Source of the DNA: Bacillota bacterium
GTDB lineage: Bacteria > Bacillota > Clostridia > Acetivibrionales > JANLFN01
Direction: 5' to 3'
Assembly: GCA_030705825.1 (NCBI GenBank)
Contig: JAUZPR010000008.1
Coordinates: forward strand, 1 to 52,231
Length of the DNA stretch: 52,231 bases
Under the pieces are notes generated by a model that saw nothing but the letters and a program-made list of their open reading frames with translations, was not told the DNA's origin and did no database searches. The translations under genes were made by a program, and so were the position numbers. Below are positions 19,810 through 22,751 of this stretch, piece after piece. The first letter of the stretch is position 1, and each line of letters opens with the position of its first letter.

Positions 19810-20583
19810 TCAGATATATTTTTTCATATGCATGAGAGCCGTTTTTTCAAGTCTGGAAACCTGTGCCTGAGATATTCCTATCTCCTCTGCAACTTCCATC
19901 TGTGTTCTTCCTTCAAAAAATCTTAGATTCAAAATCAGTTTTTCCCTGTCATTGAGCTTCCGCATCGCTTCTTTTAGTGCAATCCCCTCAAGCCATCTTT
20001 CATCATGGTTTTTTTCATCGCTTACCTGGTCCATGACAAAAATAGCATCTCCACCATCATGATATACCGACTCGAATAGTGATATCGGATCCTGGATGGC
20101 ATCCAATGCAAATACTATTTCCTCCTTGGGTATTTTCAATTCCTCGGCAATTTCAGCTATGGAAGGTTCCTTGGCGTTTTTGTTTGTTAGCTTTTCCTTT
20201 GCCTGAAGAGCTTTATAAGCAATATCTCTAAGAGACCGGCTTACTCTTATTGAGTTGTTGTCTCTAAGATATCTCCTGATTTCTCCAATTATCATAGGTA
20301 CGGCATAAGTAGAAAACTTAACATTTTGTGTTACATCAAAGTTATCTATTGCTTTTATCAAGCCGATACAGCCTACCTGAAACAAATCGTCCACATATTC
20401 ACCGCGGTTGTTGAACCTCTGAATCACACTTAAAACGAGCCTAAGATTTCCTCTTATGAATTCCTCTCTTGCGGAGGTATCTCCCTTATGCATTCTTTCG
20501 AACAGCTCTTTTTTTTGTTCGTTTGTCAGAACTGGCAATTTAGAAGTGTTAACACCACAAATTTCAACCTTGTTGACCAGCAT
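19810..20583 (-). CDS. sigG: RNA polymerase sporulation sigma factor SigG
   Basis: SigG directs late gene expression in the forespore after engulfment. The 257-aa product is very close to Bacillus SigG as I recall it. It has the N-terminal NKVEICGVNTSKLPVL tag, region 2 GEYVDDLFQVGCIGLIKAID with KFSTYAVPMIIGEIRRYLRD, and region 4 GRTQMEVAEEIGISQAQVSR. ATG 20583 has GGGAGG at a good distance; the frame from 20631 is spurious. It lies downstream of spoIIGA-sigE as in Bacillus but is separated by about 510 bp holding a hairpin array and its own promoter. Its ribosome site can be masked in read-through RNA. Confidence 0.97.
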   Translation of the reverse strand: MLVNKVEICGVNTSKLPVLTNEQKKELFERMHKGDTSAREEFIRGNLRLVLSVIQRFNNRGEYVDDLFQVGCIGLIKAIDNFDVTQNVKFSTYAVPMIIGEIRRYLRDNNSIRVSRSLRDIAYKALQAKEKLTNKNAKEPSIAEIAEELKIPKEEIVFALDAIQDPISLFESVYHDGGDAIFVMDQVSDEKNHDERWLEGIALKEAMRKLNDREKLILNLRFFEGRTQMEVAEEIGISQAQVSRLEKTALMHMKKYI

Positions 20584-20589
20584 AGAAAA

Positions 20590-20637
20590 ACCTCCCGTAG
20601 CAAAATTCCGTACGTAAAACATTATTGCCACGGAGGT
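20590..20637 (-). promoter_or_regulatory. Hairpin that can mask the sigG Shine-Dalgarno
   Basis: In minus-strand RNA the sequence ACCTCCGUGG (from 20637 to 20628) can pair with CUACGGGAGGU (20600-20590), which holds the sigG ribosome site. This gives ten pairs with one bulged G and one G-U. The upstream arm lies between the -35 and -10 of the proposed sigG promoter. It would therefore be present only in transcripts reading through from sigE. This resembles the arrangement I recall for Bacillus sigG. Confidence 0.65.
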
Positions 20638-20648
20638 TATTTTTATAC
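20620..20648 (-). promoter_or_regulatory. Sigma-F-type promoter of sigG
   Basis: The minus strand reads GTATA (20648-20644), 14 bp, GGCAATAATG (20629-20620). This fits the sigma-F pattern GyATA, about 15 bp, GGnnAnAnT at nearly every fixed position. It lies about 40 bp before the sigG start codon. A forespore promoter is expected here because sigG is a sigma-F target in Bacillus. Confidence 0.6.
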
Positions 20649-20692
20649 TGTAAAACCAATCAAAAATTTTTCAGCAAAACCCTTGACATATT

Positions 20693-21098
20693 GACAGCTG
20701 TAATATTAGCCGTTTTTTTTACGGAATGTGTAAGGTTACACATTGGGAGTAAAATTATAGAACGGCTTATATTACAGCTGTCATTTCCTTTTAACCTGCG
20801 TAAGAGGAATAATAGTCATTCTTTTTTACGGGCTGTGCACGGTGTCCGTTCACAGAGGGAGTAAAATTATAGAATGACTTTTTCTCTTACGTCTTATTGA
20901 CAGCTGTAATATTAGCCGTTTCTTTTTTATGGAATGTGTGAGGCACACATTGGGAGTAAAATCTATAGTACGGCTTATGTTACGGCTGTCATTTCCTTTT
21001 TTGCCTGCCTAAGAGAAATAATAGTCATTCTTTTATGCGGGTTGCTTGCGACAATCGCACGCAATGTAGCATAATTTATAGAATGACTTTTTCTCTTA
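20693..21098. repeat. Tandem array of four large hairpins (A-B-A'-B') between sigE and sigG
   Basis: Units: A 20693-20782, B 20799-20891, A' 20899-20990, B' 21010-21098. A and A' have arms GACAGCTGTAATATTAGCC and its near complement. B and B' have arms with TAAGAG(G/A)AATAATAGTC and GACTTTTTCTCTTA. All share a T-rich 5' inner strand, an apical stem of variable sequence, and a conserved strand near GGGAGTAAAATTATAGA (diverged in B'). The A-B pair, including its linker, is repeated with a period of about 206-211 bp. B' overlaps the sigE stop codon. No open frame or known RNA family is recognised. Confidence 0.8.
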
Positions 21099-21827
21099 TA
21101 TCATCTTATTTATCTCTTTTTTCAATCTGCTTATAATTCGCTTTTCCAATCTTGATATATATGATTGTGAAATACCCAGCATATCTGCCACTTCCTTCTG
21201 GGTCTTTTCTACACCATTGGAAAGTCCGAATCTAAGCTCCATAATCTTTTTCTCCCTGACAGAAAGCTTTTTCATTGCATTATTGAGAAGTTCCTTATCC
21301 ACTTCATCCTCAATACTTCTATGAATAAGATCATTGTCAGTGCCGAGTATGTCGGACAGAAGCAGTTCATTTCCATCCCAGTCTATGTTTAACGGTTCGT
21401 CAATGGATATCTCGGTTTTTACCCTGTTGTTTCTCCTGAGATACATCAAAATTTCATTTTCAATACATCTTGAGGCATAAGTAGCCAGCTTTATATTTTT
21501 TGAAGGATTGAACGTATTGATGGCCTTTATAAGACCTATAGTTCCTATTGAAATAAGATCTTCTACTCCAACCCCTGTATTCTCAAATTTTCTTGCTATA
21601 TAAACCACAAGTCTGAGGTTTCTCTCAATGAGAATTGACTTTACGCCAAAATCACTATCTTCAAGCTTTCCAAGAAGATAATTTTCTTCTTCACTGCTGA
21701 GCGGCGGTGGTAAGGCTTCACTGCCGCCAATATAATATATAGGCTGTTCTTTTTGAATTTTTAACTTTTTAAGAAGATTTAAATATTTTATCCAGAGTTG
21801 CAGCTTCAGTTTCTTTATTATAAACAT
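21096..21827 (-). CDS. sigE: RNA polymerase sporulation sigma factor SigE (pro-SigE)
   Basis: SigE runs early mother-cell gene expression and is made as an inactive precursor. The 243-aa product has an N-terminal basic amphipathic pro-sequence (about residues 1-30). The hallmark [14 protein letters not shown] follows, then region 2 [18 protein letters not shown] and [19 protein letters not shown], and region 4 [20 protein letters not shown]. SpoIIGA, encoded just upstream, should cleave near the QKEQ/PIYY junction by analogy with Bacillus. ATG 21827 follows GAAAGGGG. The gap to spoIIGA is 24 bp, so the two are cotranscribed. The stop codon lies inside the last hairpin of the downstream array. 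Confidence 0.97.
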
Positions 21828-21851: not shown

Positions 21852-22751
21852 TCAACCGACCAGTTCAGGATTCAGCAAAGCTTTGTATCTCTCGTTTCTG
21901 GATAGTATACTGTTGTATATTCCTATTATCACTTCATTTATATCTTTCTTGTGCTGATTTTCTCCTATTTCTATATAATCCGGCTTGAATCCCAACAGCA
22001 TACCGTTTTGCTTGCCCAGAGAACTGAATGGAATAAGCCGGAATCTGGCAATCCACTCAGAATTAGATATTATATTGGTTACACAAGTCAAATCGTTCTC
22101 CCGGGAGTTCTCATATATGTTCTTTATTTCTTCAGGCAGTATTTCTCTTAATGCATTAAACTCCACAACTACTACAGGCAGATTTGATAAAGGATCAAAC
22201 AAGGAATTTCCTGTATCAATTAAAGCTGCCATTCCTATTTTTTTGCTTTCAAATGAAATTTTAAGCGGTATTAAAAGTTTATCCCTTTCAAATCTGTGCT
22301 GAAATATCTCCCAGAATATTCTGACTATAATACCTACAGTAACTACAGACAATAGAAGTACAATTGTTTGTGACTGCCAGAATACATAAACAACACCGTT
22401 TTTTAAAAAACCTCCGTTTTGATTAAAGTAAAGGAAAGCAAAAGCAGCACCTGCGAAAATAAAAGTAGATGCATAGAACAAAACCAGTATTTTAATGAAT
22501 TCCCAGACTTTCTTCGGTGTAAAGACCAATGCAACAATGAGCAAGGAGAGAGCAAATTTGGAGAATGCAGTGTAGTATATTTTAAACCCTGGACAGATTA
22601 AAAGGAAAACTACATATAAAGCTCCTACAAAAGCACCTATAAATAATCTGAGGGTAGAAGTCTTTCTTTTAGAAAACTTGGATGTAACCATCAAAATTAA
22701 GAAATTCATTACCAGGTTCTCTAAAAAAAGCACATCCAAATATACTTCCAC
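21852..22751 (-). CDS. spoIIGA: Sporulation sigma-E processing aspartic protease SpoIIGA
   Basis: SpoIIGA is a membrane-embedded aspartic protease that activates pro-SigE in the mother cell after asymmetric septation. The 299-aa product has about five hydrophobic segments in residues 1-145. A cytoplasmic protease domain follows with the catalytic motif ALIDTGNSLFDP (Asp at about 179). The start is GTG 22751; the upstream ribosome site (GGGG) is weak-to-fair. It is the first gene of the spoIIG operon here, transcribed toward sigE from a promoter with Spo0A-box-like sites. Confidence 0.95.
   Translation of the reverse strand: MEVYLDVLFLENLVMNFLILMVTSKFSKRKTSTLRLFIGAFVGALYVVFLLICPGFKIYYTAFSKFALSLLIVALVFTPKKVWEFIKILVLFYASTFIFAGAAFAFLYFNQNGGFLKNGVVYVFWQSQTIVLLLSVVTVGIIVRIFWEIFQHRFERDKLLIPLKISFESKKIGMAALIDTGNSLFDPLSNLPVVVVEFNALREILPEEIKNIYENSRENDLTCVTNIISNSEWIARFRLIPFSSLGKQNGMLLGFKPDYIEIGENQHKKDINEVIIGIYNSILSRNERYKALLNPELVG

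Follow-up and report, generated by a model that had tools for sequence, protein, structure and literature searches.

A hairpin predicted in read-through RNA would mask the sigG start region in Acetivibrionales and, in other letters, in other spore-formers

Background

Directly upstream of sigG in a clostridial genome, the RNA copy of the sigG promoter is predicted to fold onto the ribosome-binding site and start codon of the gene, and we consider it probable (roughly 0.8) that the resulting hairpin constitutes a read-through-specific translation lock, which would bar the synthesis of sigma-G from RNA that reads through from spoIIGA-sigE. In the proposed mechanism, a polymerase that passes spoIIGA-sigE and continues into sigG would produce a long RNA that includes the sequence of the sigG promoter. 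The promoter strand, being antisense to the start region of sigG, would then close over the Shine-Dalgarno sequence (SD) and the AUG, and the long RNA, which is made before the septum forms as well as in the mother cell, would yield little sigma-G. In the forespore, sigma-F and later sigma-G would initiate transcription 3' of the masking strand, giving an open RNA that can be translated. Three points are inferred for the source organism itself: the position of the transcription start, the production of read-through RNA and the in vivo block of translation.

The gene of sigma-G lies in the sigE operon, yet the protein is kept from both the mother cell and the predivisional cell; how this is achieved has long been asked, mainly in B. 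subtilis. The co-variation between promoter and start site across distant spore-formers, described below, speaks for a lock with a function and against a mere curiosity of B. subtilis, and the lock proposed for that species looks, from the sequences compared, widespread among spore-formers. A search of open-licence papers yielded no report of a sigG read-through hairpin in Clostridia. New are the clostridial members, the use of the whole promoter strand (i.e. -35, spacer and -10) as the masking strand, and the co-variation itself. The promoter spacer would in addition be under an RNA constraint, which implies that spacer changes that are read as promoter effects may alter the translation of read-through RNA.

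Results

The locus and the sigG promoter

The window, i.e. the whole stretch of DNA that was analysed, comprises 52,231 nt of contig JAUZPR010000008.1 (GCA_030705825.1) from a Bacillota bacterium of the order Acetivibrionales, and its minus strand encodes ftsA, ftsZ, spoIIGA, sigE and sigG according to the ORF list. The gene for sporulation sigma factor G (sigG; 19810..20583, minus strand, 257 aa with an ATG start in the ORF list) was identified by a match to TIGR02850 (spore_sigG) above the curated cut-off within its own genome, and is 96% identical to the orthologue from the same family. It lies directly 3' of spoIIGA-sigE on the same strand, separated from it by a gap of 512 nt, and this linkage, read from the ORFs of the window and of its relatives, is conserved. 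On the basis of the ORF list and homology, sigE (21096..21827, minus strand) would be the source of the read-through RNA, and the putative read-through operon would begin with spoIIGA (21852..22751, minus strand; ORF list and conserved linkage). A terminator-like site upstream of the sigG promoter was found in none of the sigE-sigG gaps scanned (58/58 without), and the window contains no Rfam match.

Read-through at this locus has precedents. In C. acetobutylicum, Northern blots revealed spoIIGA-sigE-sigG, spoIIGA-sigE and sigG RNAs (PMC2530871), and in C. difficile a forespore-type promoter was mapped before sigG, besides that of spoIIGA; both read-through and separate sigG transcripts are inferred for this species (PMC3789822).

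Between sigE and sigG lies a promoter that is by sequence of the sigma-F/G type (GTATA-14-GGCAATAATG). The block reads, 5' to 3', CA-GTATA-AAAATAACCTCCGT-GGCAATAATG-TTTTACGTACGGAATTTTGCTAC-GGGAGG-TTTTTCT-ATG, i.e. -35 element, spacer, -10 element, leader, SD and start codon. On the minus strand, the -35 element GTATA occupies 20644..20648, the 14-nt spacer AAAATAACCTCCGT, which bears the anti-SD, 20630..20643, and the -10 element GGCAATAATG, which is nearly invariant across the order, 20620..20629. Transcription is predicted to start at 20613..20614 (minus strand), some 6 nt past the -10, given the promoter geometry and the leader positions in B. subtilis (PMC5942855). The 5' arm of the putative lock (20625..20650, minus strand; predicted fold, conserved in A1) coincides with the promoter from the -35, across the spacer, to halfway through the -10; as it ends at 20625, the predicted start at ~20614 lies downstream of it. 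Of 158 distinct homologous regions preceding sigG, 152 contain a sigma-F/G-type promoter.

The elements pointed out in the initial annotation are located exactly where it had put them on the minus strand (GTATA at 20648-20644, ACCTCCGTGG at 20637-20628, GGCAATAATG at 20629-20620, CTACGGGAGGT at 20600-20590 and ATG at 20583-20581), and the logic it proposed is supported by comparison, given the conserved promoter, the position of the masking arm upstream of the expected start and the co-variation of arm and start region between clades. Nearly the whole order uses a 14-nt spacer in the sigG promoter; a spacer of 14 nt was reported for Bacilli, with 15 nt being commoner in Clostridia (Mearls et al. 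2018, PMC5942855).

The predicted fold of the read-through RNA

In the predicted fold of the read-through RNA, CAGUAUA, AAA and AACCUCCGUGGCAA (20650-20625) pair with UUGCUAC, GGAGGUUUUU and UAUGCUG (20603-20578), which yields a helix of ~24 pairs with one bulged G that covers both the SD and the AUG. The 3' arm (20578..20603, minus strand) encompasses in this fold the UUGCUAC preceding the SD, the SD itself (GGGAGGU, 20596-20590), the U-run, the AUG (20583-20581) and CUG. The pairing noted initially, of ten pairs with one bulge, is real and forms the inner ten of this helix, but it understated the extent of the predicted pairing. The core (20640-20586) folds at -19.7 kcal/mol (z -4.72), with 0 of 200 shuffles being as stable, and the fold is unchanged when the 5' end of the RNA is moved from ~55 nt to 500 nt before the SD.

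Opening the SD of the window is predicted to cost 11.3 kcal/mol when the RNA includes the promoter strand, versus 1.6 kcal/mol in the promoter-started RNA. The corresponding values for read-through and promoter-started RNA are 12.7 and 3.0 kcal/mol in the order (n=60), 12.1 and 3.4 kcal/mol in Bacillaceae (n=32), and 2.7 and 1.9 kcal/mol in clades without the hairpin. The masking of the SD is hence predicted to require the upstream arm, in line with the original proposal that masking be limited to read-through RNA. For the local leader (20614-20573) the folding energy is -4.7 kcal/mol, and when 40 nt of coding sequence are added to the promoter-started RNA a weak pairing of the SD with downstream sequence is predicted to be possible.

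Of 31 window genes that were folded identically, sigG ranks first both in energy (-28.6, the lowest; next -26.9) and in the probability of pairing between SD and upstream sequence (0.88; next 0.84). Only about 0.5% of spacer shuffles of the window pair as well as the native sequence (p 0.005), and a probability of SD-upstream pairing above 0.8 is found for 14% of 261 control genes, taken from many loci, versus 95% of the sigG genes of the order.

Conservation of the pairing within the order

The regions upstream of sigG were sampled from the order of the window (58 genomes), other Clostridia, named genomes and Bacillaceae. Of the 60 sequences from the order, 56 exceed their spacer shuffles at p<0.05, and when folded individually 51 of 53 anchored rows adopt the fold of the lock. 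The comparison across clostridia that had been suggested at the outset thus shows the pairing to be kept in nearly all 60 order sequences. The consensus block of the order (CAGTATAAAAATRACCTCCRTGGCAATAATGATACTGAC...ATTGCCGGGAGGTTTTTT) implies that in the relatives the -10 (GGCAAT) additionally pairs with the AUUGCC that precedes the SD, and for the second helix the variants C-G (29 rows), U-G (6 rows) and U-A (2 rows) were observed.

Departures of the spacer from the order consensus amount to 71 cells, with the pair being retained in 58 and broken in 13. Nearly all pair-retaining changes are C>T or A>G, i.e. they lead to G.U, which is the pattern expected for RNA. The same changes bear on the reading that the inverted repeat is a DNA dyad, serving as the operator of a regulator of the sigG promoter. 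The position in the promoter region, with two arms ~40 nt apart that flank the start site, would suit an operator, but the mostly one-sided and G.U-compatible changes of the arm, the excess of one-sided over two-sided changes within the structure, the identity of one arm with the SD itself and the retention of pairing between arms whose sequences are wholly different from clade to clade all argue against it. We hold an operator to be highly improbable, and it was dropped because the changes are of the G.U type.

Two-sided covariation is weak in the within-order alignment because one of the arms does not vary. Similarly, in a fixed register 87% of the cells are paired, compared to 40-52% when the arms are slid, a count that is hardly above that of column shuffles because one arm is held by the ribosome or the promoter. 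Standard RNAalifold returned no consensus structure for the alignment of sigG upstream regions, since pairs that are broken in a few register-shifted rows become forbidden; with a lowered penalty the expected fold returns.

Co-variation between clades

The pairing is present, in other forms, in Bacillaceae, in Clostridium and in two further clades. In Bacillaceae the layout is the same and the letters are different, with the spacer TTTTTCCTTCYC facing GAGGAGGGAAAAG and GGAG of the -10 facing CUCC. Per clade, the partners in spacer and start region are ACCTCC/GGAGGT, TTTTTCCTTC/GAGGAGGGAAAA, CACACCTC/GAGGTGTG, CTCCATCC/GGATGGAG and ATCAGC/GCTGAT. When partners were swapped among the five clades energy was always lost, and the native partners were best in 5/5; the arm of the order, for instance, pairs with the start regions of the order at -23.1 kcal/mol and with those of Bacillaceae at -11.2 kcal/mol.

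As three of the five clades in the swap test had been chosen because they pair, an unselected permutation test was added, in which native and permuted partners were compared in draws of 23-31 sequences with spacers less than 55% alike. Native partners were better in 10/10 draws (z -3.6 to -8.2, p <=0.0004). An earlier, cruder test, in which partners were swapped between 61 single-linkage clusters, had given a marginal outcome (Wilcoxon p 0.044; KS p 0.05 and 0.28), and its weakness can be attributed to a single cluster that absorbed 76 sequences. Taken together, the comparisons support that the promoter arm and the start region of sigG changed together and that the pairing is under selection.

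A coincidence perpetuated by inheritance, in which SD-like and anti-SD-like strings are each conserved separately for reasons of ribosome or promoter, would be in keeping with the fact that SDs are all alike, that -10 and SD are independently constrained and that each helix has one arm with hardly any variation. It would not explain why the otherwise free spacer fits the start region of its own locus even though SD contexts differ between the clades, and the unselected permutation test speaks directly against it. We see very little chance for this explanation, and a chance origin of the sigG pairing is, from these comparisons, very unlikely.

The differences between clades also weigh on the possibility of an intrinsic terminator or attenuator, in which the hairpin halts read-through just before sigG and masks the SD as a side effect. 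The hairpin is indeed followed by a U-rich run, as the scored stretch after the SD contains 7.0 T in the window and 6.4 in the order. In Bacillaceae, however, an equally strong hairpin goes with almost no T (0.6), and in two other clades the value is ~3. Furthermore, the loop, at about 14-25 nt, is a long one, and the T-run doubles as the pairing partner of the A-run in the spacer. With stem and U-run present and a long loop, a scanner limited to loops of 3-8 nt makes no call. The terminator-only reading, which we consider unlikely, was dropped because the U-runs are not retained outside the order, although the hairpin may add partial termination in the order of the window.

In one further homologous region (L139) a complement of the SD region, recognised by eye (TCCATCCCCGG with CTGGGGATGGA), is located 5' of the -35 and not in the spacer; the masking arm may have moved there.

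Absence of the hairpin and evolutionary history

Homologues that do not keep the pairing had been named initially as evidence that would speak against the lock. Within its own order the pairing is kept, but it is missing in several distant clades: clear negatives include the groups L144-L149 and L154-L159, Tissierellia (L072, L079, L083 and L093) and Desulfotomaculaceae (L048). Several sporulating clades with an adjacent sigE lack it, so the hairpin is no general requirement for sporulation. The distribution of the trait is clustered and patchy; on the SigG tree an unrooted count gives at least 13 changes, 8 of which are forced by starred branches, compared to 30 for shuffled labels.

Linkage to sigE is not significantly associated with the hairpin, which is carried by 3 of 10 unlinked versus 52 of 101 linked loci (Fisher p 0.32). 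At L076 a GNAT-like gene is inserted between sigE and sigG and the hairpin is absent, whereas the sister L065, with an adjacent sigE, has it; this contrast is suggestive of a link between hairpin and sigE distance. At L078 spoIIGA-sigE and sigG occupy opposite strands and are divergently oriented, an arrangement that makes read-through impossible, and the hairpin there is not significant.

A tentative scenario, which we regard as possible though somewhat less probable than its alternatives combined, is that the lock is ancestral to spore-forming Bacilli and Clostridia. The forespore promoter of sigG would then have served as antisense to its own start site from their common ancestor onward, and promoter spacer and SD would have co-evolved while the sequences turned over, with independent losses in some lineages; the alternative would be repeated gain.

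Palindromic repeats between sigE and sigG

The sigE-sigG gap of the window also contains four tandem structured palindromic repeats (stem-loops) of ~95 nt each (20691..21101, minus strand). A covariance model built from these four found 12 copies in the source genome, and a search with it found copies, often in tandem, in 6 further genomes from the order, so that the repeats form a dispersed, uncatalogued family. The conserved core is CTATAA-P3-TACA/TCCC-P4-CCC, and no Rfam family matches the repeats. In their stems, almost all changes are Watson-Crick exchanges of both partners (162 cells, with very few one-sided changes), and the covariation score is 0.754 versus 0.196 when shuffled. This pattern points to maintenance of the palindrome at the DNA level, and the repeats look like a DNA-level mobile or hairpin element. 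Since they are missing from the sigE-sigG gap of the nearest relative (151 nt), the lock would not require them.

Comparison with known systems

Masking of a ribosome site by a strand that carries a promoter has been tested experimentally in phage T4, where hairpins in the early transcripts of gene e (lysozyme), soc, 49 and I-TevI mask the ribosome site (PMC3014915). The late promoters lie inside the 5' strand, and their transcripts lack that strand and are translated (PMC3014915), much as is proposed for the window. The genes are unrelated, however, the promoter is a phage promoter, and the control is temporal instead of compartment-specific.

A second hairpin at sigG is the leader hairpin of Mearls et al. 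2018, which has 5 bp, is formed in the promoter-started RNA, occludes the SD of sigG and dampens translation 2-4 fold at all times (PMC5942855); such leader hairpins are rarer in Clostridia (PMC5942855). An occluded sigG SD is predicted for the window as well, but the promoter-started leader of the window has little structure near the SD (predicted opening cost 1.6 kcal/mol). An assignment to this type was rejected, as it requires -6 kcal/mol or lower and the window leader reaches -4.7 kcal/mol.

The closest counterpart is the read-through hairpin of B. subtilis, a precedent that the initial annotation had pointed to and that indeed exists (Mearls et al. 2018, PMC5942855). There, a hairpin of 20+ bp was proposed to block the translation of sigG (spoIIIG) from spoIIGA-sigE read-through RNA, and it cannot form in PsigG transcripts (PMC5942855); Mearls et al. 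2018 trace its description to Masuda 1988 and their reference 9 (PMC5942855). The read-through RNA was described as untranslated, and a large hairpin was proposed (PMC2530871, PMC5942855). The two systems share the gene, the spoIIGA-sigE neighbour and a hairpin of 20+ pairs over the ribosome-binding site that would form in read-through RNA only, and in the Bacillaceae homologues the 5' arm lies, as in the window, in the promoter spacer and the -10. The arms themselves are unrelated: in the window an A-run and ACCTCC face GGAGGU and a U-run, whereas in the Bacillaceae homologues a U-run and CCUUC face GAGGAGGGAAAA. The start codon of sigG is ATG in the window and TTG in the Bacillaceae homologues compared. 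Judged by the features that can be tested in sequence, the hairpin of the window belongs with the sigG read-through hairpin of B. subtilis.
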